In this document: piece after piece, positions 469 through 64,000 of the stretch | How positions within the stretch are numbered: the first letter of the stretch is position 1 | Layout of the letters: each line of letters begins with the position of its first letter | Assembly: GCA_022702545.1 (NCBI GenBank) | Contig: JAHRBC010000008.1 | Coordinates: forward strand, 1,612,001-1,676,000 | From: Phycomyces nitens | Taxonomy: Eukaryota > Mucoromycota > Mucoromycetes > Mucorales > Phycomycetaceae | Direction of reading: 5' to 3' | DNA length: 64,000 bases | Notes under the pieces: generated by a model | What the model was told of the DNA's origin: nothing | The model's input: only the letters and a program-made list of their open reading frames with translations | The model's database searches: none | Made by a program: the position numbers and the translations under genes

Positions 469-483
469 CACTGGGAAAACGGT
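469..483 (+). repeat. Left terminal inverted repeat, copy 1
   Basis: CACTGGGAAAACGGT matches the reverse complement of 6711-6725 over 15 bp. The leading CACTG is typical of the CACTA superfamily. Confidence 0.85.
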
Positions 484-594
484 CCTGAAGTACAATGATA
501 AGAAGTAACCTTTTAACCTATGCAAAACTGGAGTGATTTTGTATCTCAGAAAGTTTTTCATATTCAGGTTAAAGATAAAGCTTTACTCTATCTT

Positions 595-680
595 ATTGGC
601 TTAGACACAATAGACATATGAATATCAATTTGTAAGATTATAAAGTTGTTGAGAATAAAGTAAATGTAACACTTGTTTCC
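595..680 (+). promoter_or_regulatory. Conserved transposase promoter block, copy 1
   Basis: An inverted CCAAT box (ATTGG, 595-599) ends 112 bp before the transposase ATG. A second conserved block, TGTAACACTTGTTTCCTT, lies about 30 bp before the ATG. The same two blocks occur upstream of the transposases of copies 2 and 3, with the CCAAT box 113 bp from the ATG in both. Conservation of order and spacing in otherwise diverged sequence argues for a core promoter. No factor is identified. Confidence 0.6.
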
Positions 681-710
681 TTATTATCTTAATATTCAAA
701 AGCATACAAT

Positions 711-3700
711 ATGTCTTCTATTACTCAACTTCGCAACGAGGCCTGTTATTGCACTAAATGCAATGGTAACGCCCAAGGTTACAGTCTGGTAACAAAGAGA
801 ACCTCTCAGCGTCATAATAAGAGAGCAAGAATTGACGAACTTGAAAGAATTGTGATGGGTATGATGATTTTGGTATTGTTTTTTGGCCCTTGTATAATAA
901 CACGGTTTTTTATTAAACACAGAAAGACAAAGAGAAATGGTGGAGATTGATATTGAACGTAAGGAATATTTATTTGAAGAGCAGCAGATAGTAACAAGCT
1001 ATTGTATTCTATATGTAGCTATCACAACCCATCAATCCGGTTCTATGGAAAGACAGAATGATTTTTCCCACTCACCCGTCGTGGAATCTGAGCTGATGCT
1101 GGATGGCGATGATTCAGCTGCCAATGAGGTGAATGGCAATGACAGCAACAATGAAGAGGAGAGCAATGCCGAAGACAGTGATGGTGACGACGTCGAGGAG
1201 ATTGAAGTCGAGGATCTTAGCAGTGAAGGCGAGTGTTGAATAAAGAAAAAGAACCTGAAAAAATTGAGTGTTAATAATTATCATTTTAAAATAGACCCCT
1301 TTTCCTCCCCCGAGATGCCAGAGAATCCAGTGCACAGGTCCATTGCCATATTCGTGGTCCTGTTTGCATCCCGATACGTGGTCAACAAGGGTGCTGTTGT
1401 CTTGATCGAGTTCATCAACGAGCTCTTGAAGATCTACGAGCAGGATTTCCAATTGCCCTCTAGCCTTCCTGGTCTCCAAAAGATGACGGGTTTCTCAGCC
1501 TTGACCAAAGGAATAAAGAAATCTGTTGTGTGCCAGGATTGCCACAAGGTGTACGAGGAAGCTGGGTCTGTTCCTGAGTTCTGTAACTCATCCAAGGTTG
1601 GTTCCCGCTCTTCCTGTGGGTGCAAGTTGATGAAGGCGTCCTCTTCTGGTACTTTGGTTCCAAGACACCAATTCCACTATCAGTCCGTCAAGCAGGCGTT
1701 GAGTGTCCTTTTCCTCCGCCCGGATTTTGAGGCCAATATCCGCCATTGGAACAAAGAGCTTAAGGTCATGGACACCATGTGCGATGTGTACGATGGTGCC
1801 ATGTGGAAGGACCTGAAGGATAAGGATGGTGTCTCCTTTGTCGCTGACCCACGTTCATTGATGCTGACATTGAACATCGATTGGTTTCAGCCATTCGATG
1901 GGGTGACTTATTCCTGTGGAGCAATCTACTTGGCAATAAACAATCTTCCTAGGGCTGAGCGGTTCAAGCCCGAGAATATCATCCTTGTTGGCCTGATGCC
2001 TGGGCCGAAGGAGCCAAAATCAGACGAGATAAACAGCTACCTGGAGCCGCTGGTCAATGACCTGAACCAGCTGTACGTTGGTGTTTCCATCCCAACGTTT
2101 GAGTGCCCTTCTTCTGTGGTTGTCCGTGCTGCCTTGATGATGGTCGCCTGCGACATCCCTGCTGCCAGGAAGACTAGTGGCTTCACAGCCCATAACAGCA
2201 CTCGGGCATGCTATAAGTGCAGTCGCAGTTTCTCCCGTCTGGAAGGCACGAGCCATGTGGACTTTCGTGGGTTCGAGTTTGTCAAGTGGAGGCTTGCCAA
2301 TGGTGAAGAAAACCGGGTGCATGCTGAGGAGTGGAAGAGTGCAAGTACGCCCTCAGAAAGGCACCAGCTGGAGGTCGAAAATGGTGTTCGATGGTCGCAG
2401 CTGCACCGCCTTGGATACTTTGATCTAGTACGTGGAACGATCATTGATCCCATGCACAACCTATTCCTGGGTACGGCCAAGAGGATGGTCGAGACATGGA
2501 CCGCCAGTGGTCTGATCACAGACCGGGATCTTTGTCAGATGCAAAAGGTGGCAGAGACAATGGTGTTGCCTGTGGGATATACCATGTTGAAGACGAAGAT
2601 CGGAAAGGGGTTTCCCCGAATGAAAGCCGACGAGTGGAAGTCCTGGGTGTTGATTTACTCTCCTGTTCTGCTGCGGCCTGTTCTTTCTGGAACAAAGTTC
2701 AAGAATTGGATCAGCTTTGTTGATGCCTGCCGTCTCCTCACCAAGCCTACCATCACTTTTGACGAACTTGATGAGGCCCATAGTCACCTGGAGAAGTTTG
2801 GTCGGGAGTGTGAACAACAATACCCTAGTACCATCCTCACCTGCAACATGCACCTACACCTCCATCTTCGTGACACTGTTCGTGATTTTGGACCAGTGTA
2901 TGGTTATTGGCTCTTTGGGTTCGAGCGATATAATGGGTTGTTGAAGAATGTTGATACAAACAGGAGAGATGGGTTTGAATCAACATACATAAAAAGTTTT
3001 ACTGAAAATATGTATAAGGGTGATCTTGTGCAAAGACTTACATGTCAGAGCCAAGTCCCCTTCAAAGTACTATTGAAAAAACTCACCTCCTTGTCCAATA
3101 CTTTTATAGTAGCCCCAGCCCCAGCACCAGCACCTCAACGCCGTTTCCGTCTTGACGCATTCCTGCAAGCCTCGTTGGATGTCAGTCTTACGATTAAGGG
3201 TAACGAAGCTCTCCCTCCGTCAGCATTACCTTTACCAACAGCAACAGCAACAACACAGATGGGTGATATCGACTATCCCCATCTCCTAGAATATTACAAG
3301 AGAGCATATGACAATGAGCACCTTGTTGACTACCTCCATGCATCTTCATCACCATTCTTTGTCAATGACCGAATCACAAAGATCAAGGCCATTGATCTTC
3401 TTGGTCAGACATACAAGGGCAAAGGTGGATCTGGCAGTCGCGGGTCATATATCCAAGCTCTTTTTCTGGATTTCGAGGGTAGAAAGACAAACGCGTACAC
3501 AGGAGAAATCCAATACCTGTTCGCCCACAACTTCGTTCCTCCTCCCAGCCCCTCCAACAGCCGCCCTCATTTCCACCACAAGCAACATGTGTTTGCATTC
3601 GTCCACTGGCTTGTTCCAGATCCTGACAATCTCAGACCAGTTGAGCAAGTTGACGTCTGCCTCCCTGGTTTTGCGCCAAACACGTTCGACAGCATCTTGC

Positions 3701-3810
3701 CAGTGCACAGGATTCTCTTGGAAGTGGCTACGGCCGAATTAAAAATTGAAAACAACGCAAGGATGCTGGTCATTCCACTGCCAAAAAAATATATGCATAA
3801 ATACAAATAA
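711..3810 (+). CDS. tnp2-type (Transposase_21) DDE transposase, copy 1, four exons
   Basis: Predicted to cut and paste the element by acting on its CACTG ends. Exons joined as 711-858, 923-958, 1019-1228 and 1295-3810 give an uninterrupted 969-aa protein. The third intron uses a GC donor (GAAG/gcgagt). Exon 1 encodes a small Cys motif (CYCTKC, then HNKRAR), probably a zinc-binding DNA-contact module. Exon 3 is very acidic. Exon 4 holds the catalytic core: D327 in NIDWFQPFD, D516 in DPMHNLFLGT and E675 in FERYNGLLKN, the tnp2-family pattern. Between the first two lie ACYKC Cys pairs. Upstream is a CxxC...CxC cluster (CQDC, CGC). The start is the ATG shared with copies 2 and 3 at the same distance from the element end. 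Its 3' end faces the accessory gene across 135 bp. Confident in family; activity is inferred. Confidence 0.85.
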
Positions 3811-3813
3811 AAC

Positions 3814-3836
3814 TTTTCTCTCTCTCTCTCTCTCTT
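3814..3836. repeat. (CT)n microsatellite
   Basis: A short run of TC dinucleotides just after the transposase stop, in the convergent intergenic gap. No function is evident. Confidence 0.7.
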
Positions 3837-3945
3837 TTAAAGAAGCAAAAAACAAAACAAAGCCAAGTAAAATATACATATAGTCCAAATAGCGCATATG
3901 TGAAACAGGGTGAAAATTAAGAGAAAAAGAAAACGTTTTATTGTC

Positions 3946-5123
3946 TCAGTGACCATTGAGGAAGGGAGGAAGAAAGCCCTCAGGGACTGCTAAATCTGCA
4001 ACGCGGCCAAATACTCTTGGGAGCATTTGGCGCACGTTGACACCCAAGCCAAGGAGCGAGTACAAGTCCAACAACTCAATCAACTGATTGAACTAATATA
4101 CATTCATTAGAATATTATTTTATGATTCAAAAGCAATAAAAAAATTTATTTAAATAATATGTTACCTCATCGCTCCTCCAGCCTGGGCGTACTGTGCGGA
4201 TCATCCGCCGGCCAGGAACTCCAGGAAACTCATCCTCAGACTCACCCTCAGACATTGCTGCCTTTTGGATGAGTGCTGAGCAATCATTGCCTATTGCATT
4301 GTCAATGGCATCCTTGTTGGAGAGGTATGCCATTCGACGGCGATGGAAATGCTAATCAAACATATGTTTAATATTGTTTTTCAATCTCAAGTCTTTTAGA
4401 TGCTATACTATTACATACATCAGCTTCCCGGCCGGCTTTTCTGGCACGAGCATTTGCGGCTACCCGTGCCTCAGGAGATGCCCTCTCCTGGCGACGCCTT
4501 CCGCAAAAGTTCCGGTAGACACTGTCCCGAAGATCCCTTTGGCGCAAGCCAGTGTTGATGAACGTTGGGCCCAGGTAGGCAAGGAGTTCAAGAACCAACT
4601 CCTTGTTGGGAGATTCATTGAAATGAACCTCCGTTCTCCACCTGGGCCTGTTGTTGTTGGCTTGCACCATAGCCGGGTTGTTTGACCTGAAATTGGGCCT
4701 CCACAGATAGTCTCGTATATGTCGCTATTAAATTTTTATAAGCCAATGAATTGGTAAGCTATTGAGAATATTAATACTTACAAACGCTTCTGTGGCGGCA
4801 CCAGGGTTATACTCCACCACAGCCGGGATGATGGGAGCTGGGCCAGTGGCAGGGATGGCAACAGGACCAGGAGCAGGGCCAACAATGGTGAATAGCTCCT
4901 CACCAAAGGCAGAAGCAAGCTCGGCGGCAGGAACTGCACTGTTGTTGGCAGCCACCAACTCAGCCAAACTGTCAATAGCCTCGACAGTACTGGCGTTGCC
5001 TTCGATGCTGGTGCCAATGCGAGAATCTACCCTGACAAGGATGTTTTGAATATCCCGCAAGGTCTCCAACAATTGGAGTTGCTCATCGGTTGAGCGAGAA
5101 GTGGGAGTGGATCTTGGTGCCAT
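3946..5123 (-). CDS. Conserved transposon accessory protein, copy 1, four exons
   Basis: Not recognised as a named family. Exons 5123-4782, 4724-4419, 4351-4166 and 4092-3946 join in phase 0 to a 326-aa protein. Exon 1 encodes a low-complexity, Pro/Ala-rich region after a heptad-like stretch (LLETLRDIQNIL) that may be a coiled coil. Exon 2 (102 codons) carries the best-conserved core, WRPNFRSNNPA, then NESPNKELV and a basic RRRQER/ARARK tail. Exon 3 (62 codons) has MSEGESEDE followed by VRPGWRSDE. Exon 4 gives a short helical tail. Exon lengths 306 and 186 nt are identical in copies 1, 2 and 3. Convergent with the transposase and present in all five copies, so probably needed for transposition. 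A DNA-binding, TnpA-like partner is the simplest guess but is inference. Confidence 0.75.
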
Positions 5124-5584
5124 GGTCTATAGAATATCATATGTTTTCAAAATTAGCTTTATATTCTCTTTATAAATTATAGACTCTACTCTTTACATAC
5201 AAAATACTTGGTTTGCGAGTGCAGGAGGGTCGATTCAATTGTAAATAGATGGTCTTTATATACACAGATGAGTTTAATAAACAGATTCCTAATTACCCTT
5301 TGTATACTCTGTATAAATTAATAAAAAAATAATTTTGGATCTCTGCTTGAAATTAAATATCATTTCTTTCTTTCTTTTTGTTCTATCTTCTTATCTCTGT
5401 TGTTTTATCTCTACGTGGGTTTCTAATAAGACATTCTTTATACTAACAAATTAATGACTTCTTTATAAATGTATACTCATCCCAATACATTCTCTCTACA
5501 TTGCCCATCTAGACTAATCATGGTCAGTTACATGTGCCGGTGCCATCTTGCAAGTTATTCTGATTGTCTCTTTCTATCCTGTAG

Positions 5585-6275
5585 ACCTCTTCCACTTGTA
5601 CAGCCTATTATATGGTGCCATCATCAGTGCCAGGGTAAATAAAATCTTTTCGTGTCCAATTTCTTTTTTCTCAACGTTTGTTATTCTACAATAGGCCGCC
5701 GCCATCACTGTCTACCCCATCTGCCTCCTTCATCATCTACAACTGGTTATCATAATGGTAATGCCGTTTCTTGGTCTTTGTGCTTTTCCCTAATATTATT
5801 CTGGCTATTTACTAATACTTTTCTATATTCTTAAAAAGTTATTGTTGGCCGCCATATACCATCCCTCTACTATAATCGCCAACTCTGTTTTTGGTATGTA
5901 AATCGATTTTTCTATCACTCAATTCACCCATATTAATTTATTTTATCCCATCTCTAGTCAATCTAATCATACAAGATGCCATGCCGCACAACTCTGCCCC
6001 TCTTTGCCCATTCTTATCCAATCCTTGCAATGTAAGTATAATATCCCTTGCATCTTGAATAGCACCCGCACTTTTGAATATATGTCACTAATATGACTTT
6101 TATTATATCAGAATACTACTGCAACCACCCAAATTGCTGCCGGACCCTATTTTCAGGTATTGTTCAGTAGAGAAGTATACGATCCAAGTAATATCAAATA
6201 GGCTGGTAGAAGCGGCAAGGATAGACAGTAATAGTATTAGAGCTTGTGTATAGAACCATTCTATTCTTTCCAATA
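5585..6275 (+). ncRNA. Short-exon spliced unit (third transcription unit), copy 1
   Basis: Candidate exons of 50, 63, 55, 74 and 45 nt (5585-5634, 5695-5757, 5839-5893, 5958-6031, 6112-6156) are each bounded by consensus AG and GT(A/R)A(G/T) sites and separated by 60-81-nt introns. A conserved AATAAA at about 6270 could end the transcript. The exon sequences, splice sites and 3' block recur in copy 3 and partly in copy 2, in the same divergent position relative to the accessory gene. In this copy the joined exons can be read through in one frame for about 95 codons, but copy 3 has a TAA in the last exon and an altered exon length, so coding is doubtful. Listed as noncoding by default; a fast-evolving short protein remains possible. 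Confidence 0.5.
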
Positions 6276-6710
6276 AACACAAATATAAACCATAAACCTT
6301 TTAAGTACGGGGTATAAAATGATAGAAAGAGTAATTATTGCTTGATTATACAATAATGAGTTTCAAAGAGTGGTCAATACTGGCAGTTTGAATGGGTAAA
6401 CAATAATAAACCCTCACTATTAGCGTATGAAAAACAACAATAAGATCGCCCTTTCAAGATGTAAACACAATACCTGTACACCAAAAACATAATGTCGGAT
6501 GTAACAATTGAGTATATCAAGTCAGTTAAGCATGTCAAAAATGCTAACAAACCTTTGTTCCGTTTGCTGTCACAACTTTTACCATGTTTATTTCGAGTCT
6601 TACAACCTGATAGGAACCTAGGTTCTCCTATCTGTCATATCTGTGTTTTACCATAGAAAATTCGCGACTTTTCACATATTTATTTACAGTTTTACACATG
6701 ATCTACTTTT
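6276..6710. other. Terminal region of copy 1 without a gene
   Basis: AT-rich sequence between the 3' end of the short-exon unit and the right terminal repeat. I see no coding frame or RNA gene in it. Confidence 0.6.
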
Positions 6711-6725
6711 ACCGTTTTCCCAGTG
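6711..6725 (-). repeat. Right terminal inverted repeat, copy 1
   Basis: Reads CACTGGGAAAACGGT on the minus strand, matching 469-483. It abuts LINE ORF2 sequence. Confidence 0.85.
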
Positions 6726-9832: not shown

Positions 9833-9864
<32 letters not shown>

Positions 9865-45881: not shown

Positions 45882-46964
45882 ATTGGTACTATTTTTTTTC
45901 ATTTTTATAAACTATATAAATTTTTACGATTCTTGCTTTTTTATTGATTTTATAGACAAAACATTCAATATATTTAAGATGAATCAATGTGTACATAATA
46001 ATAATGACCAATATTTTAAAATAAAAAAATAATATTCAAGGATAATTAATAATTTCGGCACCATTAGTAATCCATCAATTTTTTTTGAATTTAACAGAGA
46101 TTGGGTTTGTAATGCTTATAAATATTAAGGGAGATTGATTCAAAGCCCAGATATCAAAAGACGATGATGAATAAATGGTGTGTTTGATGATAGGATTAAT
46201 AATATATATCGTCTCGCTCTGAAATATGATTCATATAAAAAAGAGCCAAATATAATACCTCTTGCTCATATAATCTTTATTATGAATAACATTAAAAACG
46301 AAACATACAACCTCCTGTGCAAATGTTCGGCCTGTACCAAATATACAGCCGATGGAATATTGCAGAATGCACAGACATTCATGTGCCATAAGAATTCTGA
46401 TAATGTGTCAAGCATTGGTCCCAAGGATAGAGATGATTGTAAGTGAAATTGTATATCGTTATTCATAATCTAATAATGTTTGTTGTTAATTATTACAGCC
46501 AATGTCAGAAGCACAGTTGAAGAAGAGTCAGATATCATAATGCCTGATGTTTCTAATGAGTTTATTGATTGTAAGTGCGATATATTTTGGCTATCAATTA
46601 CAGGTACTAACTTTTATTTTATTATAGATGAAGACAACTTTTCTATCATGTCAGTCAAAACTACTGGACAACAGATACCTTTCTTGAGAGAAGACAATGT
46701 TTTTGACGTTGAGGAGGAATCAGATGTTGAGTCATCACTCATTGCAGCTGACAATGAGGATTCCGATTCAAATGATGAATCTAGCGATGAAGATGAGACT
46801 GAGATTGATGGCGGCAATGGTTTTGAACAAATGATGGCTTCAAGTATGTATACATAAAATACAAACATATTTAATTGTATACAAGTTATTTATCATATAC
46901 TTTCCTTTGTAGTTGGATCCTTGAAGATTCATGACATGTCCCAAACTAGCCAGTTCATGGCCAT

Positions 46965-46995
46965 CACTGGGAAAACCATTTGATATACACTGGTA
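46965..46995 (+). repeat. Left terminal repeat, copy 3
   Basis: CACTGGGAAAACC, then a second CACTGGT about 23 bp inside. The right end has the same two-copy arrangement. Confidence 0.85.
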
Positions 46996-47399
46996 TATAG
47001 GTAGGTATATTCCTGGACAAAGGTAAGGTATATACTGGAGTTTATGTGAACAAATGCCTAGTGCACAAGGTACCTTTGGTGCCTGAGCATTTTCGCGCTA
47101 AACACTGGTGTTTAGTCCACTAGGGGTGATGCTAGTAAGGGGAGTTAGTATTCTTAATATGTCAACTTGAAGTGAATACCAGAATTACCTATGCAAATCT
47201 CAGTTTTAATTTTATTATATTCAATAAGTCTATTAAAAATAGAATGGTGAGGTTCCTTTGCCTACACCCTTGAGAAGTCACATAACTGTAGTATAAGGTA
47301 CTTTGCCTACAGTAGATAGCCCATTATTTATTGATTTTGGTATCCTCTTTATTACTCTCGACCAGTGATATACTCTCAATTATTTTATATCCCGTACTT

Positions 47400-48640
47400 A
47401 TTAGGTTGTTTATGGTTTATATTTGTGTTTATTGGAAAGAATAGAATGGTTCTATACACGAGTTCTAATACTATTACGGTCTATCCTTGCCGCTTCTACC
47501 AGCCTACTTGATACTACTTGGATCGGGTGCTTCTCTACTGAACAATACCTGAAAATAGGGTCTGGCGGCAATTTAGGTGGTTGCGGTAGTGTTCTGATAT
47601 AATAAAAGTTATATTAGCGATATATATTCAAGAGTGCGGGTGCTATTCAAGATGCGAGGGATATTATACTTACATTGCAAAGATTGGATAAGAATGGACA
47701 AAGAGGGGCTGAATTGTGTGACATGGCATCTTGTATGATTGGATTGACTAGAGATGGGATAAAATAAATTAATATGGGTGAATTGAGTGATAGAAAAATT
47801 TATTTACATACCAAAAACAGAGTTGGTGATTATAGTAGAGGGATGGTATATGGCGGCCAATAATAGTGTCTTGTTAAGAGTATAGAAAATTATTAGTAAA
47901 TAGCCAGAATAATATTATGGAAAAGAATAAAGGCCAAGAAACGGCATTACCATTATGATAACCAGTCGTAGATGATGAGAGAGGCAGATGGGGTGGACAG
48001 TGATGGTGATAGCCTAAATTAGAATAAGCAACGTTAGAAAAGAAATTTTTTTTTTTTGACACAAAAAAGTTTTTTTACCTGGGCACTGATGATGGTGCTA
48101 TATAATAGGCCATGCGGGTGGAATAGGGCTATAAGATAAAAAGAGCAAACGGAAATAATATTATAGAAAAGTATAAAGAACAAGAAACGGCATTACCATC
48201 ATGATAGCAGCCGTAGATTATGGAAGAGGCAGATGGGGTGAATGGTAGGGGTGGTCTATTGCAGAGTAAACAAAGTCAGATAAGGAAAATTTTGATTTGA
48301 AAAGACTTTTTTACCATGGTCCCGATGACAGTATAATATAATGAGATGTGTGAGTCAAAGAGGTCTATAAGATTGATAGAAAGAGAGAGAGTCAGAATAA
48401 ATTATAAGATTACAGAGAGTTTAACTGATGATTGTTAACCTGGATGGGCAATGTGGAAAGGATGCATCGGAATCAGCCTGTGTTTATGGGAGTGTAAAGA
48501 GAAAAGTAAATTGGCGCGGATATAGGGAAAAAGAGAGATTAATTACAAGGGCCCACATCGAATTTGAAATAGAGACAGAATAGGTGTAATGGATGGAATC
48601 CAAAATATATCTTGAGCGATTAATATGCTTTGCTAGGTTT
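47400..48640 (-). ncRNA. Short-exon spliced unit, copy 3, with duplicated exons
   Basis: On the minus strand, exons of about 50, 59, 50, 63, 57, 74 and 45 nt are flanked by consensus splice sites. The first two pairs (near 48330/48240 and 48115/48020) are repeats of one 50+63-type exon pair, including the intron start GTAATGCCGTTTCTTG. The 57-, 74- and 45-nt exons match copy 1 closely, as does the terminal block with AATAAACACAAAT near 47425. A TAA in the 45-nt exon and the odd exon length break the frame seen in copy 1. A structural or regulatory RNA fits better than a protein. Confidence 0.5.
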
Positions 48641-49197
48641 CAGTCTGCTGTTTATTATTTTCTTGGGCTTACAATAAAGGCGCAGAATCAATGTGAAAAA
48701 AAAAAGCTGTGTAATCAACACTATCAAGAATCGTTTGGTTCAAAGAATAAGGTTTTCGGGATAGATGGATAATGTTTATTGTTAAAGAGCCTGTATAATT
48801 TAAACAGAATAAAATATATAGACAAATAGATTTAAAGCTAAATGAATAGTAATATTAATTGTGTTATAGAATAAACCCAAAGTATATATATATAAAAACC
48901 GATTTTACAAAGTCTTTTTCTTTATCCAAAGAGACCAACTCACTAGTTAATTAATAAAGGACAATTTTGATTGCCGATATCAACTCTGATAGTCTACAAG
49001 AAGTCTTTTTGGATACAGCCATGTATATGGCTATTAATATATAATATGCTTTTCGTATAATTGACTTGTTCTTTCTCACTCTTTTGTGTTCTCATCATCT
49101 TATTATCTTTTTAGTTACAAGTAAAGAATATCATTTATATTAAATCCAGACACAGTATAATATAATTGACACTGACTATTTTAATATTCTTTAGACA

Positions 49198-50327
49198 ATG
49201 GCAAACAGACGCGCACTCGCTCCTCAGCCCAATGCAGAGAATCCTCGGATGATGGAGGAGATAATTGCTATGAAGCAAACTGTCTTGACAATAAGCAACG
49301 ACGTAGGCTTTCTCAAACAAGCATATACCACCATGAACGGCCAAAGTGGTGCCAATGTTGGAGGCAACACCAACACTGGTCAGCCTTCAAATGCTGGGCC
49401 AGTGGTTCCTGTTGCTGTGGCCCCAGTTGTCAGCACTACTGGCAATGTTCTTCCTGAGCCAAAACCAAAGGACCTCACGGAAGTGATTGTAAGTAACAGA
49501 GTAATAATAATTCACTAATTTAATGCTATAAAATAGAGACTTATTCATGGCTACATGTGGACGCCAAGGTTCAGGTCGAATGACCAGGCCGAAATTGAGG
49601 CCAACAACAGGAAGCCCAGGTGGAACACCAAGGTCTTCTTCAACGACAGTCCAAATAAAGAGTTGGTGGACAACCTAATGGCCTTCCTGGTGCAAAGGTC
49701 TCGGGACCCCAGGTTGCGAAACAGTGACATCCGTGAAAAGGTTCACAACCACTTCCGCAGTCGGTGTCACCTGGAGTCCCAGACTTCTAGCAAGAGTGAT
49801 GCCGCAAAGGCAAAGACACGGCGCTCTTCTCGTGAGGGTGATGTAAGTTGTGTTTTATATTCTAATCAGAGCTTAGTTTTAAGAGTAATATTAATACCAA
49901 TTGATCTATAGCACCTCAAACGCCGTGGCCTTACCTATGCCAAGAACAAGGCTGCCATTGATGCTGCAATGGGTAGGGATTGCTCCAATCTCATTCAGAA
50001 AGGAGCAATGTCTGATGGCGAGTCTGGTGATGAGACACCTGGGACTCCAGGTGTGCGCATTGTTCACATCAAGCGCCCAAGTTGGCAAAGCAACGAGGTA
50101 AATTGTTTTCCAGCCAAGTTTATTGTTTTTGAAATATAATAAATAGAAACTAATTGTCCTTTTAGTTCAACCATTTCCTCGAAATGGTTGACTTGTATGC
50201 CCGTGTCGACTTGGGCAACAATTCTCGACAGCTGATGGAAAGACGCTTCCACAGTGTCGTGACCAAACCAGTCCCTGACAGCATGCTCCCCCCACCACCA
50301 CAGTGGACCGTCAGAGATGACGAATAA
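49198..50327 (+). CDS. Conserved transposon accessory protein, copy 3, four exons
   Basis: Exons 49198-49488, 49537-49842, 49912-50097 and 50166-50327 join in phase 0 to 314 aa. Exon 1 has a possible coiled coil (MMEEIIAMKQTVLTISNDVGFLKQ) and a Gly/Pro/Val-rich linker. Exon 2 (306 nt) has MWTPRFRSNDQAEIEANNRK, NDSPNKELV and a basic end. Exon 3 (186 nt) has MSDGESGDE followed by KRPSWQSNE. Exon 4 ends PPPPQWTVRDDE. It lies tail to tail with the transposase (126-bp gap). Exon lengths match copies 1 and 2 exactly although the sequences differ at many residues, so the protein appears to be under constraint. Confidence 0.75.
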
Positions 50328-50453
50328 AAAATTAAACAATTAAAAAATTAAAAAAAAAATCTCTTCTTAAGCTGATTGTTACAGTTTGTCTTAATAACAT
50401 ACTTAGAAGGTAAAATTGTTTGCCTTGGAGGAAAGATGTTTTTATTTATTTAT

Positions 50454-53400
50454 TTAAGCATATTGCTTTTTTGGCAGAGGAATGACTAGTGTTGTCGTCT
50501 CATTGTTCTTTGTATATTTGGCAGTGGCCACCTCAAGCAAGATGCGATGAACAGGCAGGATGCACTGATAGTCATCATCTGAAAATTCAGGCAGGCAAAT
50601 GTCCACACCATCATCTTCTCGTGATCTATCTGAAGACAGAGGAAGCCATCGGACAAATGCAAAAACATGCTCGGTGTGCTGGATTCCATGACTTGAGCAG
50701 ATTGTCTGGTTGGTTGGTGGCATGAAGGAATGAGTAAACATATACTGGATTTGGCCAGTATACGCATTTGCATGGTCGCCGTATCTGCCAAGGAACAGTG
50801 CCTGGACAAAAGACCCACGACTGACAGAACTATTCTTGCCAACGTATGTTTGGCCTAGAATATCAATTGATTTCAGTTTGCCAATCTGATTATCAACGAA
50901 AAACGGCGAGAGGGAGGCGTGACGATAGTCCACTAGGTCTGGAATGTCATACTGCTTCTTGTAATACTCCAACAAAAAAGGATAGTGGACATCACTTATT
51001 GAGGAAGGCTTACTGGTCAAGAGAGGAAATGCAGATGGAGGGAGCGGTTCATTGCCTTTGACAAGAATTGTTGCATCGTTGGAGAGTCGAAGAAAGTCTT
51101 GCAAGTCAAATGTGCAGTAGGTTGTAGAGGGAGAGGAGAGGATGGTGGGTGTGGTGGACGTGAGTTTCTGGAGAACAGGAGAAAAGAGGACTTGGCTCGA
51201 ATTGGGAAAAACGGCATTGACATAGTCACTCTTGTATGCATCTTCCAGGAAGTTTCGCATATAGGTCATCTCAAACCCATCTCTTCTGTTCGTGTTAATA
51301 TTCTTTAACAAGCCATTGAATCTCTCAAACCCAAAGAGCCAATAACCGTACACGGGTCCAAAATCACGAACGGTGTCGTGAAGATGGAGGTGCAGGTGCA
51401 TATTGCAGGTGAGGATTGTAGCAGGGTAAAGCGTTTCGCACGATTGACAGAATTGCTGGAGATGGAGGTGAGCTGACTCGACATCATCATACGTTATTGT
51501 TGGCTTGACCAGAATACGACATGCGTCCACGAAATCGATCCAGTTGGCAAAGTTTGCTGGTGGAAGAACGTACTTCAGCAAAACCGGAGAGTACACCAAT
51601 ACCCACGACTTCCATTCGTCAGCTTTCATCCTGGGGAACCCCTTGCCAATCTTCGTCTTCAGCATGCTGTAGCCAACAGGCAGTACCATGGTCTCGGCTA
51701 TCTTCTGCATCTCGCGAAGATCCCTGTCTACGATCAGACCACTGGCAGTCCACTTTTCCACCATTCTTTTTGCCGTGCCCAGAAAGAGATTGTGCATGGG
51801 ATCGATGATTGTTCCACGTACTAGATCAAAGTATCCAAGACGATGCAGCTGCGACCATCGAACACCATTTTCGACCTCCAGCTGATGTCTTTCTGAGGAT
51901 GTACTTGCACTTTTCCACACCTCAGCATGCACCCGGTTTTCAGCACCACTCGCAAGCCTCCACTCAGCAAACTCGAAACCGCGGAAATCTACACTGGTCG
52001 TGCCTTCCAGACGAGAGAACTGATGATTGCATTTGTAGCATGCGCATGTGCTGTTGTGGGCGGTGAATCCACTGGTCTTTCTTGCTGCTGGGATGTCACA
52101 CGCCACCATCATTAGTGCAGCACAGACACTGGCACCAGTTGGCCTCTCAAATGTTGGAATATTCATTCCAACATAGAGCTCGTTCAACTCATCTACCAAC
52201 GGCTCCAGGTAGTGGTTGATCTCCTCTGACTTTGGCTCTTTTGGTCCAGGCATAAGACCAACGAGGATAGTGTTTTCTGGCTTGAATCGCTCCTCCCGAG
52301 GTAGATTATTGATGACCAAATAAATGGCACCACAAGAGTACACCACACCATCGAAAGGTTGGAACCAGTCGATGTTGAGAGCCAACATGAGGGAGCGCGG
52401 ATCCGCTGTAAACTGGGCGCCGTTGATGTCCTTGACGTCCTTCCACATGGCGCCGTCGTAGACATCGCACATTGTCTGTGGAATCTTGAGATCTGAGTTC
52501 CAGTGTCTGATTCTGGCCTCAAAGCCAGGGCGAAGAAAGAGTGTCTTCATAGCATGCTTGACGGATTGATAGACAAACACCCTTTTTGGGGCCAAGGCAC
52601 CAACAGACGACTCCTTCACCAACTTACACCCGCAGACAGAGTTGGATCCAAGCTTCTGGAACACACAGGTGGGAGGAACTGTCATGCATTCATCGTAGAT
52701 TTGATGGCAATCTTGGCATGCTACAAATCTGTGGATTCCCTTGGATATCTCGGAAAATCCAGTCATTCTTTGGAGCCCAAGAAGACTTGTTGGAAGCTGG
52801 AAATCCTGCTCGTAAATCTTCAAGAGCTCATTGATGAACTCGATCAAGACAATGGAACCCTTGTTGACCACGTAGCGGGATGTAAAAAGGACCGTGAAGA
52901 TGGCGATAAACTTGTGAACTGGGTTCTCAGGCATACCAGGGGCTTCAAAAGGGGCTATTGTAAAAAAAAAGAGAAAATATTAATACTCAATTTTTCAGGC
53001 TTTTTCTTTTATTCAATGATTATGTACAAACCTTCGGCATCCAACTCCTCAAGCTCAAGCTCAACAACATCTTCATCATCACTGGCGCCATCGTCATTCT
53101 CAACTGAGATCTCATTGTCATCATCGCGATTCTCAATGGAGACATCGTTGGCAGGCATGGACTCAATTTCCAAAACAGGAACATTTGTTTGGCCGCCCTC
53201 TTCTACGGGACCAGGTTGGTAAGTCATGACAGCTACAAATATAGAATATAATAGTGTGTTAGACACCATTGACATTTAAATAAATATATTTCTTACACTC
53301 AGAATCAACTTCCATCATTTCTCTTTGAGAGTCTTTATTTATAATATAATATTAATATACAAGTATACTCTGTTGTTTTAAATAAAATACCCCTTGAAGA

Positions 53401-53538
53401 TGTGAATACTGCATCTACTCTGGCTCTTTTGTTATGATGTTGGACAGTTCTTCTTGTCACATAGGTGAATCCTTCTTCATTATCACCGCATACAGTGCAA
53501 TAGCACTTGGTGTTGTAAATACTGTTGGAAGAAGACAT
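50454..53538 (-). CDS. tnp2-type (Transposase_21) DDE transposase, copy 3, four exons
   Basis: Exons 53538-53391, 53332-53297, 53232-53032 and 52954-50454 join to an open 961-aa frame. Exon 1 has CYCTVC and HHNKRAR; exon 2 is 36 nt; exon 3 is acidic (ENDDGASDDEDVVELELEEL). The core has NIDWFQPFD, DPMHNLFLGT and FERFNGLLKN with CQDC and ACYKC Cys pairs. The ATG is 243 bp inside the element end. It is closer to copy 1 than to copies 4 and 5. Intact and flanked by a perfect 3-bp duplication, so it probably moved relatively recently. Confidence 0.87.
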
Positions 53539-53567
53539 GATGTTTGTGTTTGTAATATTATTATTAA

Positions 53568-53655
53568 AAGGAAACGAGTGTTACATGTATTTTATTTGCT
53601 ATACTTTTATAATAATAAAAAGTAATATTCTAATGCTCATTGTATCCGAACCAAT
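53568..53655 (-). promoter_or_regulatory. Conserved transposase promoter block, copy 3
   Basis: CCAAT at 53651-53655 (within CGAACCAATAGGAT) lies 113 bp upstream of the ATG. TGTAACACTCGTTTCCTT lies about 30 bp upstream. Both match copies 1 and 2 in order and spacing. Confidence 0.6.
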
Positions 53656-53744
53656 AGGATGTAGTAAAATTATATTTTCGAAATAAAAAAAAGGAAAACT
53701 GTGGAGTTGAAAAATAGACTAGCTTTCACACCAGTTCAGGGCTA

Positions 53745-53781
53745 CTATACCACCAGTGTATTCAGGGCCATTTTTCCAGTG
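53745..53781 (-). repeat. Right terminal repeat, copy 3
   Basis: Minus strand CACTGGAAAAATGG, with a second CACTGGT about 23 bp inside. Target duplication CAT follows. Confidence 0.85.
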
Positions 53782-56767
53782 CATCTTTGGTGTTATCTTC
53801 CAAGCATTCTACTTGGTGCAAACGGGAGGATCAGCCATGCTCAAATTCTTCCGCCATCTTCTTGTTGCCTTTGAGAAGGATGCTGACCTGCCTATTACTG
53901 TCAACGCCTTGAAAGCAATGACCGGATTTGATACCATGACCAAAGGCATTGTAAAGTACACCGTTTGCAACAAGTGCTTTCCAATTTACTTGCCAGACAA
54001 TCACTAGCCAGCATGCACCTTCAAGAAGTACTCGACCACACAAGCCCAAATTTGCAACAATCCTCTTTTCCACGATCAATCTGCCAGAGATCCTATTCCG
54101 TTCATGGTGTTCCCATACAATTCGCTCAAGAACACTTTGACACAGTATCTCTGTAAGCCTGGATTTGAGGACAAGATATTGCAATGGAGATCAAGAGAGA
54201 CCATGGAGAACACCTTCCTTGATATATACGATGGTGCAATGTGGAATGAGTTGCTGGATGATAACGATATGCCATTTGTTGATGATAACTATTCCCTCAT
54301 GTTGACATTGAACGTGGATTGGTTTCAGCCATTCGATGGGCGCACTCATGCCAGTGGTGCGTTGTATCTGTCGATCAACAACTTGCCCAGGGAAGAAAGG
54401 ATGAAGCCAGAAAATATCATTCTTGTTGGTGTCATGCCAGGGCCAAAGGAAGCAAAGACCGATCAGATGAACAACTTTCTTGAGCCTCTTGTTGACGAAT
54501 TGGTTGAATTTTACACTGGAATGACAATCAAGACGGCTATGTTCCCTGGTGGTGTTCGTGTTCGTGCTGCTCTCATGTGTGTTGCCTGTGATATACCTGC
54601 TGCAAGAAAAACCGCGGGATTTACAGGACATGCAAGCACCAACGCCTGTCACAAGTGTGCACGTCAGTTTTCGGTGATCGATGGATCAAGCAAGATTGAT
54701 TACTCTGGATTTGACGTTGAGAATTGGACACCAAGAGAACAGGCAACCAATGCTGTGCATGCCAAAATGTGGTTCAATGCAGAATCAGACGTCGAGCGAG
54801 CAGAGTTGGAGAAGCACAATGGTACCCGGTATTCAGAATTGCACCGCCTACATTACTTTGATCCTGTTCGGTGTAAAATTGTGGATCCTATGCACAACTT
54901 GTTTCTTGGCACAGCCAAACGGATGGTCAACATTTGGAGAGACCTTGGCTATTTTCCCAGTACCACTCTTGCCCGCATGCAGCATCTGGCAGATTCAATC
55001 CTTGTTCCTCCTGGATATGCTGTATTGTCCAACAAAATTGCTTCTGGGTTCCCATACATGAAGGCAGACGAGTGGCAATCGTGGTGTCTTGTGTATTTGC
55101 TGGTTGTCCTGGAGAATGCTTTGCCAGAAACAGACTACAATAACTGGCTAGTATTCGTTGATGCATGCTGTCTATTGACAGGACCATCTGTCACGACTCA
55201 GAGTATAGACGAGGCACACCAGCTCCTTGACAATTTTGGCAAAAAGTGCAAGATTTTGTATGGAACTGTCAGCATCACACCAAACGTGCATCTGCATATG
55301 CACTTACATGAGTCTATGCTTGACTTTGGCCCTGTCTATGCATTCTGGTTGTATAGCTTTGAACAATACAATGGCAAGCTCAAGAACATCAAGACAAATT
55401 GCCGCACTGGCTTTGAGATTACTTTCATGAAGGTCTTCTTGGAAAAGGCGTTTATCAGCAACTTTCTTCAGTTTTATACTGCCAAACTTTCACCGCCCAT
55501 GGTAGAATTTCTCCAAGAAGTTGCTCAAATAGCACCGACGCCTGTCAGATCCTTGGTGAATTCTGAGTACGGCCACCCTCCACATCTGCAATTCAGCCTC
55601 AATATGTTTCTCCAAGCCGCCACCAATCCATGGTTTAATGTCACTGGAAGTGAAGCCCTGCCATTGACCTCGTTGCCATTGAAATTGTCGCCTTTATCTA
55701 TAATGACTGGCAATCATTATAAGTACTTGGTCGAATTCTATAACAAGGCTTACCAAGACACCGGCATTTCCTTCTGTGCCACGGATAGCATCCCACTTGG
55801 AGGGCATGTCTATATCAACGACCGGATTCGCAAGATGAAGAAGATTTTGTTGCTAGGACAAGAGTATTGGAGTGGTGAAAAGAAAAAGCGTGGTTCTTTT
55901 GTACAAGTCTTGTTTCTGGACAATTTGACAAGTGAATTTGTTGCATTTCCCGGCCAGATTGAGTATTTATTTACTCATGTTTTCAAGATTGGTGGAATCG
56001 AAAGAGTTTCTACTTTTGCTTTCATCAAATGGTTTCCGACGTATAATGCTGGCAGATATCAACCATTGATCAACCAAGGTCTGGAGCTGTGGGAGAAGGG
56101 GTTTTTAGAGGAGACCGTTGAGTGTATTATTCCAGTACATTGTCTGCATTCTTGCTTTGCATTGACAACTCACAATCTCCAACAAGGGTCTCAAAAACGC
56201 CTGATTATTCCATTACCTAGAAAAGTCGTCACTTAATAAAAAAAATTGCGTTTTTGACCACAAACATCAGCCACGTAATGCTTATTTTTCTTGTTTTACT
56301 TTACTATCTGCTCTTTTATCAATACATTTTTAAGATTGATTAAAATAGTAAATTGATATATACAAGTTATGTCCTTTAAAACAGATATCAAAACAAATAT
56401 TTATTTTTTCCAGCTCATTATGCGATAAGCCAAGTAGTTGTTTATTTAATATCCGATGATCAGCTATATTTTAAAGTTTATACTACATAATATACTAAAA
56501 ATTTTCATTCAAATTCCAAGTTTATAAAGCCGATGAAAATATTTTATTTTGCTATTAAATATTTGTTTTGCAATAATTACGACTAAAATAAAATAACCAT
56601 TAAAAATAACATTGTTTCTCACCATCTTGTCTTTCTTTATTTTTTGATGCTTCAACAATACAAAAACGAGTAATGCCAATCCTACCACCATCATCTTCCA
56701 GCCCAACAACTTGTTTCAACTTATTCAATAAAGACCATTATATCAAGACAACCAAATACAAATATTT

Positions 56768-57866
56768 TTATTGCTGTGTTGCAATCCACTTGGCAACACG
56801 CGCCTTCTGCTCTTTTGACAATTCAATATGTCTACTTTCAACAGGACAAGAAGAAAAGTCAATGACCTTCATCTTCTTTTCCTTGCTCCTCTGGGCTTTC
56901 AACTCGCCCAAGTACTCCTCGACCTATATCATAATCAAATTAATTAATTATATTAAGCACATCAAATTTGCCCGAACAATATCTTACCAAAGGATGTCTA
57001 TTGCTGGGAGTATAAACAGTATACTCCCGTTGCTCATCATCAGACTCAATGTCGGACAACATCTCTTTGTCCAAGAGATCCTCGACGGTCTCTCCATACT
57101 TGGACTCCAAGTTTGCCTTGTCTGCCAAATGCAGCCTCTTGTAGGCTTCGAGGATCTATTTCAAAATCAAGTATTAGAAGTATGAAAACAAATATTATAT
57201 TATACTAACTCTTGTTTTTCTCGTACGTCTACGAGAAGACTGGTTTCGCTTAGCTAACTTTTCTGGCGAGGTGTTAGCTCTGTTTAGCTTGTACGAGATG
57301 TGCCGTCTTGTTTTTTCCTCTATGACTGCAGACGCAAGAGGCTGTCCTTCGGGCTGTTGATGGATATACATCCGGACCTTGTCTGCAATAGGCCGGTTGA
57401 ACGAAGAGAGCGCCCCCTCATTCATTGTCAATGGTGTAGACACCAAGACATTCCTTGTCTCTGATCGTATGAGGTGCTATATGATATAGGGTAAGTAATT
57501 CATCAATATAAAATTAATATTTATATATAGATATCCTACCGAGACCGATGGAAGTCGATACTTCATATACATCTGTGGTGGTGGAGCTTGATGGGGGGAA
57601 ACTTGGCTACTGTTGCCATTCGAGTTCTTGAGGGATTCCATCCCTTGATGGACCTGCTGCAACAGGACATGCAACTCATTCAGTCTTGTCTGAAGAGCCG
57701 ACAGGTTTGACAACACTGCATCGTCCTGTTCAGCATTGTTGCTTGGAGCAGGAAGGATCGTCTGCATCACGGTTCCTGCTGGTCTAGTGCCACTAGTCTT
57801 ACCAATCGACTTCTTGGTAGTCAACTTGTAGGTCTTTTTAGAGCTTGATGATATAAATTGAGACAT
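56768..57866 (-). CDS. Conserved transposon accessory protein, copy 4 subfamily, four exons
   Basis: Exons 57866-57540, 57476-57210, 57155-56988 and 56923-56768 join in phase 0 to 305 aa. The layout is the same as in the other copies: a first exon with heptad-like LSALQTRLNELHVLLQQVHQG, a second ending in a very basic SRRRTRKTR, a third with an acidic MLSDIESDDEQ box and a short Lys-rich fourth. Exons 2 and 3 are shorter (267 and 168 nt), and sequence identity with copies 1-3 is low, so homology rests on position, phases and motif order. It is 531 bp from the transposase stop. No lesion is seen, although its transposase partner is dead. Confidence 0.6.
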
Positions 57867-58660: not shown

Positions 58661-58859
58661 CTTTCACACTGCAAAAATACCCCCGATTCCCATATGTGAT
58701 AGTATGTAAAATTCTGAGTGAAATAAAAAACAAATTCTAGAATTAAATTGAAATGTTATCTTGCATATATAAAAAACAACACATATAAGATAATGAAGTA
58801 ATTCGGTGGATATAAAGCTCTGCTTTTGGACGTGTAGGCTTGTTAAACTCAAGAGTGTA

Positions 58860-59900
58860 CAGAACTATAACTGAAAGTGTTATCTTATTTCTTTTTAGTC
58901 AAACGTTACATGAATTATTTTTTCAATATCAATAAAAAAATCTATTTTTTAATAGATCAAGATGCAAACTTTTTGACTATTTTCTGCAAACTATTCACCT
59001 ATGTTCTAAAGGACGTATATTTATTGGTTGTTTAATCCATTTGACACTTTAAACGCTTTCAATTGGGGGTTTATTTTATACCTCTTTATAAATAGGCCAT
59101 GGAAAATAGTTTACAAATAGATTTTTATTGATAAAATATTTTCTCATAATATACAGTCTAGTAATCTGGTCTAGATTCATGGCTATAGCTATATTGATAC
59201 TAATTTTTTTTTACCTTTTGAAACACGGGTAGAGAACATGACTGATTCATTGACTATCATCTTGAATAACTGGAAAAGTAGTTGCTCAAACAGAGTAGAC
59301 AACCAAGACTTTGAAACCGAATTTTCAGGTATACCAAACAGTATTTCAAGATAGATAATGATATAGCAATCAAAAAATATGTATGCGTAATAGAAAATAT
59401 ATCTATATTTTTCTGTTAGAAAAGCAATAGGAATGACTGATTACTTACCAAGACAAACTGGCTTGTTGGATATTCCATGTCTTTGTTAAAACGCGGCAAT
59501 TTTGTTTAATATAAAGAGCTGATAGTAAAGACAGAATATATTAGTATTAATAGGGATAGAATATTTAAACATACCAAGTACATTCTGTCCATTCAACTTC
59601 ATCATTGTCATCTTTGGCCATTGCGATTGAAATGAGTTGTTCTGAATCTACAAGATGAAGATTACTGATTAGCAACAGCAATAAAAAATAGTGCGCCTAT
59701 TTACCTTTTTCTTGTGTAAGCATGAATAAAAGTGACTATAGGATGTCTTTTAGATAATTGAAAAAATGTTAAAGGTTGTCTTTAATTGCGTGAAAATTTT
59801 TAAATACTTACCAGAAAGTATAAAGGAAGCAAAAAGTAAAAAGAAAGAGAAAAAGGGAAAATCGGGAAAAAAGAATTCATATGCATTTTTAGATTATAGT
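58860..59900 (-). ncRNA. Short-exon spliced unit, copy 5
   Basis: Minus-strand candidate exons, for example about 59648-59577 (beginning ATTCAGAAC and containing ATGGCCAAAGATGACAATG) and about 59515-59450, separated by 50-70-nt introns with GTATG or GTAAG donors. A reading frame from that ATG ends soon after the next splice, so no sizeable protein results. Position relative to the accessory gene matches the other copies; sequence similarity does not extend beyond splice-site style. Confidence 0.35.
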
Positions 59901-60162
59901 AAGCCCTAATAAATTATGAGAATAATGGGATTATGAAAACTGTGTACCCAAGACTCTTTTTTTATTGTACTCCAGATATTGTTTTTAAAGATATAAATAC
60001 AGTCTTTTATATATATATATAATACTATTGTTCTTATTTGACACTATACCTTATACTGCAAATTATTATGTACGTTTATGTATTCAAAGAAATATATGTT
60101 AATATATATGGATTTATTTATGCTTATTATTTTATTTTATTTTAAAAAAAAATATTTAGAAA

Positions 60163-61375
60163 ATGTCTTCAAACCAGAGAAACTCAGGATGCAAAGCCAG
60201 AGCAAACCCAACTGCTCCCATTCACCGTGTTGCTGCTGGCCGTATTAGCCAGCGTGAAATCCTTCCAAGGGCCCCAGTAGCAGTGAGGAAAGTAGTCAAG
60301 GACAGACAGAAATGGCCACTGTCCTTGAAGACTTGAGGTTCCTCAAGTCAAGAATGGGAATGGTATACGATATCGCTGGCAAGACCAACCAGACCATGAG
60401 TACGTTCATGGAAGCCCATGCCAGTAGTGCCCAGAGCCAGCTCCCTCTTGGCCAAGCTGGTCCCATTGGAATGGCTCCTTCTGTTGGCCCCTTCAGCTCA
60501 CTTGGTACCAGTGATATGAGTGCAATTGTCTTGGTATGAATATTATTATTATTATGTTAAAAAATATTTTCTAATAAATTATATCTAGGAATTCATTAAT
60601 GAGAAGATGTGGAAGAAGAACTTCACGTCTAACAATCCTGCTCTGATTGCCGAGAATGAAGGCAAACAGAAATGGAATAAGGACAAGAAGATCAACCACC
60701 CAGACAATGTCAGAGTCATCAACTACTTGAGAGACTACATTCTCTCGCAGCCTCGTGCTGCTGGTTTTTGGCCTGGCATGGTAGTGCAAAAAATTAAAAA
60801 CAATTACAAGTACTACCATCTCACTTCAAACATGAGTGAAGAGCAAGCTTCTGCCAAGAAGAGAAAGGTTCGGGCTAATACCAGGCTCATCGAGGTTAGT
60901 ATAAAGACGATTTGATATTTTTAATTTAATCTGAAAATTTTTATAGATCCACTTGCGCAGGGTGGAGGCCTACAAACGTCACTGGAGGGCAATCGATGAG
61001 GAGATGGGCCATAAGCCTGAAAACCCTGATGAGATGGCCTATCTCCATGTCCTCCAGAAGGATGTGATGTCTGATGGTGAATCAGACATGGAAGACGTTG
61101 CGCCTGGTATTAGCATGCGTGTTCTTTGTGTTGCTCGTCCCAGTTGGAGAAGCGATGAGGTAATTAATATTTTGTAGAGTGATGTGCTGATTGATGAGAA
61201 AAGACTGATAAATTTAATATAGTTGAACCGGCTTCTGGAGGTCATTGACCGTCTTGCAAGAGAGGATGACCTGAGATGGTCATCAACAAAGACAAAGACA
61301 AGAATGCCCAGACAGCAAAAAACGATCAAGGAGATTCCTGCCCCAAGTCACCTGACTTTGAATTTGCCTGCCTGA
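60163..61375 (+). pseudogene. Accessory protein gene, copy 5, with a frame break in exon 1
   Basis: Exons end at 60533, then 60589-60894, 60947-61159 and 61223-61375. From the ATG at 60163 the frame stops after 57 codons. Downstream coding is in another frame from the ATG at 60312 (MATVLEDLRFLKSRMG...), so either one base was lost near 60300 or translation starts at 60312 (297 aa). Exon 2 is again 306 nt, with MWKKNFTSNNPALIAEN, and exon 3 has MSDGESDMED and ARPSWRSDE, so family membership is clear. It is convergent with the transposase, 113 bp apart. I list it as broken, with moderate doubt. Confidence 0.6.
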
Positions 61376-61488
61376 GTATTCAAAAATGAATAAATCTTTG
61401 TTTTTGTCTTTTTTACTTTTTAAACACATGATTCGCAAAACAAACTATGAAGTTATGATTAAGAAAAAGAGAGATAAGATAAATATAT

Positions 61489-63968
61489 TTAGGCAGAAAC
61501 CTTTCTAGGCAAAGGGACAACTAGTTTTTTGTTAATGTTACTACTAGATTTATAATCCACAATTGCAACAGGCAGGAGAATCCGATGGACAGGAAGAATG
61601 CTTTGAAAGTCAAGAGCCAAAAATTCATCCTTGTGAACCTCAATTCCTTCAGCCTCTCTGGTGGTGTCTGATGTGGTCTTGAACCAGTTTACAAAAGCAA
61701 AGGTGTGTTGACTGTTGTAGGCATTTCCACAATGCGAAGAAGAAACAGCAGGACTAAATGTGTGAACAAATAGATACTGAATCTCTCCAACATACGCGTA
61801 CACTGCCTCGGGCTTTTCCTCAACAAACAATGCTTGGATGTATGACCCATTTCGACGTTTACCACTCCTTCCTTTGAATATTTGGCCCATGATGTTGATT
61901 GATGCAAGCATTTCAATCCAGTCATTGACAAAAGTGGTCGAGGCCATGGTGTCTTTGCAGCTGTTAATGTTTTTGTCCCCATGGACAACCTGGTAATACT
62001 CCACTAGACAATTGTATTCCAGTCTAAGCATCATGCTCATTGGTTTCTTTTTCAATGGCAGAGTTGACAGTGGCAAAGGCTCATTACCACAAATTGTTAA
62101 CAATGGGTTCTCTGCAAATTCAAGAAATTCTGGCAATGAGAAGGCAGACAAGTCAAGGCATGGAATTTGGGCTGTGGTGATGTTTGGACGGATGGTCAAC
62201 TTGCTGAATACGTCTGAGAAATATTGTCCATTTGGTGTGCTTAGGAAACCACGAACAAAATCTCCCTTTCTTGTATCCTCAACGAAACTTCTCATATACG
62301 TGACCTCAAACCCACTTCTCCTGTTGGTGTTGATATTCTTGAGTATACTATTGTACCTCTCGAAACCAAAGAGCCAGTAGCTGTAAACTGGACCAAAGTC
62401 CAGAACGGTTTCACGAAGGTGAAGATGTAAGTGCATATTGGGGGAGAGGAGGTCAGGCTCATACAGTTGCTCACAACCTTTACCAAACTGCTCCAAGTTC
62501 TTGTGCGCGTCTTTGATATCATCCTCTGAGATACTTGGTTTTGAAAGCAAACGGCAGGCATTCACAAAGAACATCCAGTTTTTGAACATTGGCAGTGGCA
62601 ACACGTTCTTCAACACCACGGGAGAGTACACCAAGCACCACGACTTCCACTCGTCAGCCTTCATGAATGGGAACCCCTTCCCAATCTTTGTCTTTAGTGC
62701 TGTATAGTCGGCTGGCAACACCATTTTCTCCACCATCTTCTGCATGGCAACGAGTTTCCTACTGTCAATTAGACCATCTGCAACCCATCTCTCCATCATT
62801 CTCTTGGCAGTGCCTAAGAAAAGATTGTGCATTGGATCGATGATCGTGCAGCGGACAACGTCAAAGTACTGGAGACGATGCAGTTTGGACCAGCAAACAC
62901 CACTGGCAACTTCAAGGCGCTGCCTCTCAGCTTGAGTGGCTGCATTTCTCCAGACCTCAGCATCCTTATGATTATCATCTCTAGTGCGAAGGAGCCACTT
63001 TGAAGAATCAAATCCAGAATAATTAACAGAGCTCATTCCAGCTAACTGAGAGAATTGACGATTGCATTTATGACAGGCATTGGTACTGGTATGGGATGTG
63101 AATCCACATACTTTTCTTGCAGCGGGGATGTCACAAGCAACAACAAAGAGAGCAGTGCGGATTCTCACACCAGATGGACATTGGTGGGTCTTGACCTTGA
63201 TACCCAGGTACAGCTCTTCCAATTCGTCAACAAGAGGTCTGAGATAGTTATTGATTTCTGATGTCTTTGCTTCTTTAGGTCCAGGCATTAATCCCACGAG
63301 GATGACGTTCTCCTTTTTAAACCTGACATCGCGAGGAAGATTGTTTACTGCCAAGTAAATGGCACCACACGAATATGACACACCATCAAATGGCTGAAAC
63401 CAGTCAATATTCAGCGTCAGCATTATAGAGCGGCTGTCATCAACAAAGAGGTCACCATTGATGTCTTTGAGACTGTTCCACATCGCACCATCATAGACAT
63501 CAAACATTGTCTTTTCCACTTTGGGACCACGATTCCAAGAGTTGATTTGGGTTTCAAAATTGGGCCAAGAAAAGAGAGTCTGCAGAGAGTGTTTGACAGA
63601 TTGGTACACATACGATTTCTTTGGGATTGTGGACGAACTGGACTTGAACAAGCTATGGCCACACAAGGCGCTGTTTCCAAACTTGTTAAAGGTACAGAAA
63701 AAAGGTGCACCATCATTCTCATAAATACTGTGGCATTCACCACATGCAACATATTTTTTGATTCCCTTTGTCAAGGTGTTCATTCCTGCCATGCTTTTGA
63801 GACCAGAGACACTTGATGGGACTCGGAAAGAATCGCCAAAAAAATCCAGGATCTTGTTTACAATTGCAATCAAGATAATTGCGCCTTCATTGACAACGTA
63901 AAAGGAAATGAACAGGGCAAGAGCCTTGACCACAAAGCCGTGAATGAAACTCAATTCTGAGTTGAATT
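61489..63968 (-). CDS. tnp2-type transposase, copy 5, last exon (5' exons outside window)
   Basis: The exon begins after a TTTTTCAG acceptor at 63968 and is open to the stop at 61489, about 826 codons. It contains CGEC and ACHKC Cys pairs and the three catalytic motifs NIDWFQPFD, DPMHNLFLGT and FERYNSILKN. The first residues (EFNSELSFIHG) correspond to the MPENPVH region of copies 1-3. The N-terminal Cys-motif and acidic exons would lie beyond 64000. No lesion is seen in the visible part. Confidence 0.82.
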
Positions 63969-64000
63969 CTGAAAAATATCAACACAAAACACTTCATTAA

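Follow-up and report, generated by a model that had tools for sequence, protein, structure and literature searches.

Plant CACTA transposons need a second, fast-evolving protein beside their transposase, and little is known of any counterpart in other kingdoms. For the maize element En/Spm, the accessible portion of PMC1636069 describes both TNPA and TNPD as essential; TNPD, it states, interacts with TNPA and thereby stabilises the binding of TNPA to DNA. The same portion of that source describes SmTRC1 of Schistosoma mansoni, a CACTA element with a Transposase_21 enzyme and a second protein, PrA, proposed as an analogue of TNPA; its authors report that PrA had no relatives among other elements and that the enzyme had matches in Rhizopus oryzae. 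Here we describe five CACTA transposons, termed E1 to E5, in a 64,000-nucleotide stretch of the Phycomyces nitens genome (assembly GCA_022702545.1, contig JAHRBC010000008.1, positions 1,612,001 to 1,676,000; hereafter the window, with positions counted from its first letter). All five carry, tail to tail with a tnp2-type transposase gene, a gene of four exons that we refer to as the partner. The type of transposon is already known; the accessory protein family that it carries is new.

Comparison with these systems places the elements as follows. They share with En/Spm the CACT termini, the tnp2-type enzyme and the two element-encoded proteins. However, TNPA is an alternative splice product of the same transcription unit, whereas the partner has a gene of its own, convergent with that of the transposase, and no sequence similarity to any described TnpA family was detected for it. 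The dense subterminal repeats of En/Spm were not found either: when exact 6- to 8-mers were counted over the outermost 260 and 420 bp of six elements, only A-runs exceeded shuffled sequences, in E2 and in a further family, F4. SmTRC1, as far as that account goes, differs in that its terminal inverted repeats start with CCC and its second protein arises by alternative splicing, and PrA is likened to the partner by description only. CNIRT6 of Cryptococcus neoformans is a fungal CACTA element with the CACTG motif at its ends, but it belongs to a different fungal phylum and one transposase gene is named for it in the available extract of PMC12810828. On balance, E1 to E5 are best read as autonomous-type cut-and-paste elements of Mucorales with two encoded proteins.

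The partner gene and its linkage to the transposase

Reading of open reading frames (ORFs) and exons upheld the arrangement given in a preliminary description of this DNA, in which every one of five tnp2-type transposase genes is paired tail to tail with a gene of four exons. In E1, the transposase gene (711..3810, plus strand; a long exon, open from about 1303, preceded by short 5' exons) faces a partner at 3946..5123 on the minus strand (exons 5123-4782, 4724-4419, 4351-4166 and 4092-3946). In E2, the partner (25657..26828, plus strand; exons 25657-25977, 26034-26339, 26408-26593 and 26667-26828) is open over 324 amino acids and faces a transposase gene at 26958..30045 on the minus strand, with its main exon, 29480-26958, open. 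In E3, a partner open over 314 amino acids (49198..50327, plus strand; exons 49198-49488, 49537-49842, 49912-50097 and 50166-50327) faces a transposase gene at 50454..53538 on the minus strand, whose main exon, 52979-50454, is open. The partner of E4 is divergent, although open over 305 amino acids (56768..57866, minus strand; exons 57866-57540, 57476-57210, 57155-56988 and 56923-56768), and its transposase gene is interrupted by E3 into a 5' part (46282..46964) and a 3' part (53782..56236), both on the plus strand. The partner of E5 (60163..61375, plus strand; exons 60163-60533, 60589-60894, 60947-61159 and 61223-61375) has a frameshift in exon 1, and the main exon of its transposase gene (61489..64000, minus strand) continues past the end of the window. 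Thus, the earlier statement that the first three pairs are fully open applies to E2 and E3, as regards partners and main transposase exons, but not to E1, whose partner carries a one-base frameshift in the last exon that is not present in 12 other aligned copies.

From N- to C-terminus, the partner consists of a helix, an Ala/Pro-rich linker, a basic helical core, an MSxGES acidic box, an RPxWRSDE segment and a tryptophan motif. The motifs named beforehand (W-x-x-x-F, NxSPNKELV, SEGES and RPxWRSDE) were all located. Exon 2, which in E1 (4419..4724, minus strand) encodes the basic, all-helical core, has exactly 102 codons and phase 0-0 in E1, E2, E3, E5 and two further families, F4 and F5; the 89 codons of E4 are the sole exception among the seven families examined. 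Net charge is +9 to +15 for the core and -4 to -5 for the acidic box. Structure prediction gave an all-helical core (predicted local distance difference test score 86.9, predicted template modelling score 0.70) and a long N-terminal helix, for which a coiled coil is predicted. Identity to the E1 partner is 40% for E2, 40% for E3, 26% for E5 and 19% for E4, the last of which nonetheless aligned with the partner profile (hhalign probability 97.5, E 6e-12). Judged from such sequence differences, the window holds five different CACTA families, and not one family in five copies, as had been proposed.

The genome searched comprises 11 contigs and 48.98 Mb. DNA searches with parts of E1, E2 and E3 matched at least 48, 41 and 47 places, respectively, with 40 candidates scored per search; these lower bounds include fragments and some other families. 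All three elements have many near-identical copies elsewhere, and among the 47 E1 matches listed outside the window, 29 start no more than 2 bases from position 469, at 96-100% identity. Exact motif searches of the whole genome returned 612 matches to the transposase pattern (control, 0) and 376 to the partner pattern (control, 1), and the families F4 and F5 have the same tail-to-tail pair.

Linkage was counted on one contig, C1, for which both motif patterns are complete. An opposite-strand transposase motif lies 2.09-2.45 kb downstream of 41 of its 53 partner motifs, against a chance expectation of 0.214 pairs on average and 3 at most in 1000 random placements. Other evidence pairs three of the remaining 12, which leaves nine of the 53 without a pair; for one of these nine, the closest transposase motif is 227 kb away. 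The same contig has 84 transposase motifs, and this excess over partner motifs implies that some elements have a partner missed by the pattern, as in E4 and E5, or have none. Most of the 84 fall in clusters at 0-0.52, 3.87-4.15, 6.17-6.37, 8.36-8.48 and 9.4-9.92 Mb, which possibly correspond to centromeric or subtelomeric regions.

The partners gave no significant sequence-family match in Pfam, NCBIfam or PDB. In Pfam, nothing significant was obtained for the E1-E3 partners or 12 homologues, the weak hits (E values reaching 10 or 1) belonging to unrelated families, and no membership was found in the described TnpA or plant transposase-associated families. Searches of a 5.8-billion-protein set returned 28 relatives, namely, seven from Mucor saturninus, two from Phycomyces nitens and 19 from P. 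blakesleeanus; because these searches required shared five-residue words and scored about 7,000-8,000 candidates each, distant relatives may have been missed. The E1 partner shares 99% identity with a protein from Mucor saturninus. In P. nitens, a protein of 195 residues has 84-87% identity to the E3-type partner (49198-50327), compared with about 40% between partners of different families within one genome; so close a match may reflect passage of the element from one genus to another, or contamination. We found no paper describing the partner in the titles and abstracts of the open-licence literature searched. By these sequence comparisons, the partner is a lineage-specific protein family for which the libraries searched gave no named match, in agreement with the preliminary description.

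Selection on the two genes and a proposed role of the partner

Comparison of E1, E2, E3, F4 and F5 showed, at the level of their coding sequences, long-term purifying selection on both genes between families. The ratio of nonsynonymous to synonymous substitution rates (dN/dS) is 0.11-0.44 for the partner in nine of ten pairs, E2-E3 being undefined, and 0.09-0.17 for the transposase in all ten, values that are only rough because synonymous sites are near saturation (proportion of synonymous differences, 0.60-0.77). Among 13 recent copies of E1, one longer two-ended copy having been left out, the ratio for the partner is 1.01 (14 synonymous and 39 nonsynonymous variants), that is, without visible constraint, and the transposase has a ratio of 0.63 (46 and 86). 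The check on dN/dS suggested in the preliminary description, where a value near 1 would count against a role of the partner, thus came out in its favour between families and against it among recent copies. A ratio of 1.01 is nevertheless expected if most inserted copies drift, and the two data sets together suggest a partner gene conserved in the long term whose present-day copies are mostly drifting.

With moderate confidence, we propose that these are two-protein CACTA elements, in which a tnp2 enzyme would be accompanied by a tail-to-tail, lineage-specific accessory protein for DNA binding and assembly, working like TnpA. First, the partner would multimerise through its predicted N-terminal coiled coil, and its basic helical core may bind the element ends. 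Second, it would recruit or position the transposase, possibly by contact between its strongly basic core and the strongly acidic N-terminal region of the enzyme, where a segment has a net charge of -19 to -22. Third, the transposase so loaded would be assembled into a cut-and-paste complex, cutting at CACTG and joining the element to a target site staggered by 3 bp. As the partner is borne by the element and several divergent families have retained it next to their transposase, it probably belongs to the transposition machinery, as the preliminary description had anticipated, and may be needed for transposition. The comparison with TnpA made there is likewise supported, and we consider it the best reading of the partner's function; identity with TnpA itself is not claimed.

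A different and rather unlikely role for the partner would be to protect or regulate the element, be it by countering host silencing, by activating the element's own promoters or by repressing transposition at high copy number, with no part in cut-and-paste. Maize TNPA has such roles besides transposition, as the accessible portion of PMC1636069 relates. Moreover, when the exon bounds of E1 are applied to its 12 other copies, the partner frame is stop-free in seven, while the main transposase exon is readable to its end in two, which would suit a partner whose action is independent of the enzyme; its gene is, however, also the shorter target for mutation. Domain searches of the partner found no silencing-related domain, and its constant arrangement with the transposase is just as compatible with a joint function.

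A partner captured from the host, or carried as a passenger with no role in the element, seems improbable. The lack of visible constraint among recent E1 copies and the nine unpaired motifs on contig C1 would fit such an origin, but its presence in seven divergent families (E1-E5, F4 and F5) with between-family dN/dS well below 1 speaks against it. No relative was found outside Mucor saturninus and Phycomyces either, although a host copy might be among the 28.

The intron-rich cassette

Between the start of the partner gene and the right end, on the strand opposite to the partner, E1, E2, E3, F4 and F5 have in common an intron-rich cassette. In E1 it occupies 5561..6290 (plus strand), divergent from the partner gene, with at least four introns, conserved donors and an AATAAA at its end. 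In E2 and E3 it lies on the minus strand within the approximate bounds 24430..25110 and 47430..48340, respectively, the latter with a two-exon module present twice. At this position, E4 and E5 have other intron-like chains, recognised by eye only. The cassette introns are conserved as much as the exons (0.64 versus 0.59 between two sequence groups). Scored in blocks of 60 columns, the cassettes of E2 and F4 are 90-100% identical along some 900 bases, and those of E1, E3 and F5 are mostly 83-98% identical once column 360 is reached, whereas about two thirds of synonymous sites differ between the genes of these pairs. The cassette similarity stops abruptly about 450 bases short of the terminus. 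Cassettes so much more alike than the genes, together with this abrupt end, suggest from sequence comparison that the cassette has been exchanged as a module between transposon families.

With second-intron acceptors placed by hand and differing between elements, the spliced exons in frame 2 are open in E1 and F5, whereas E2 and E3 each have a single stop in this frame and F4 has a stop at the first codon. Nonsynonymous/synonymous ratios are 0.49-0.69 in frame 2, 0.61-0.98 in frame 0 and 0.74-1.08 in frame 1. The cassette may be a spliced RNA, a small gene or a regulatory region. An Rfam scan of the window returned one tRNA only, and the cassette is thus no catalogued RNA. It is tempting, although quite speculative, to imagine three-component transposons, in which a tnp2 enzyme and a new family of end-binding proteins with coiled coil and basic core would be joined by a cassette giving a trans-acting spliced RNA or small protein, for example against host silencing, passed as a module between families.

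Anatomy and classification of the elements

Three of the elements are complete within the window. E1 (469..6725, 6257 bp) has the terminal inverted repeat CACTGGGAAAACGGT at both ends, 469-483 and 6711-6725. Its flanks in the window, GAT and ATT, have 2 bases in common, in contrast with the 3-bp target duplications found in 11 of the 13 two-ended copies of its family (20 loci fetched). E2 (24008..30287) has the repeat CACTGGAAAAATGGG and the target duplication CCA, and E3 (46965..53781) the repeats CACTGGGAAAACCAT and CACTGGAAAAATGGC and the duplication CAT. E5 (repeat CACTGCAAAAATACCCC, duplication TCA) covers 58667..64000 and, in window numbering, reaches its right end at 64831, beyond the window. 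The termini of E4 were not found. E3 is inserted within the transposase gene of E4 and E5 just downstream of its partner gene, so that between 46282 and 64000 E4 or its immediate neighbourhood has been hit by both. CACTG inverted termini are present at both ends of E1, E2, E3, E5, F4 and F5; F4 has the target duplication TTT, and F5 no target site duplication at its ends.

The enzymes of E1 and E4 match Pfam Transposase_21 (tnp2) with E 6.8e-20 and 2.1e-15, respectively, both passing the curated cut-off, and those of E2, E3 and E5 are tied to this family solely via ORF similarity. Since CACTG termini, 3-bp duplications and Transposase_21 combine, the elements are CACTA (EnSpm) transposons and the earlier label "Plavaka-like" is replaced accordingly. 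According to the relevant extract of PMC12730594, Plavaka belongs with EnSpm to a wider group, CMCT, with duplications of 2 or 3 bp, the transposases are related and some EnSpm elements match Plavaka proteins, but Plavaka termini are TGT..ACA or CATCA..TGATG, unlike the CACTG..CAGTG observed here, and no Plavaka model was among the Pfam matches, all of which makes a Plavaka identity highly improbable.

Long gag-pol-like retrotransposon ORFs with reverse transcriptase motifs in their translations lie at 9443-14263, 14600-19411, 20300-23862 and 40725-45596, one of them an uninterrupted frame of 1606 codons, and E2 is flanked on both sides by gypsy-type ORFs. Immediately to the right of E1, at 6905-8419 on the minus strand, there is an open frame of 504 codons with a CxxC zinc-finger-like start.

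The partner is also a candidate for a new type of DNA-binding domain. Its family in Mucorales, present in a single genome in seven divergent families with many near-identical copies, offers a natural test set for asking if the end specificity by which families of CACTA elements stay separate is determined by accessory proteins rather than by transposases.
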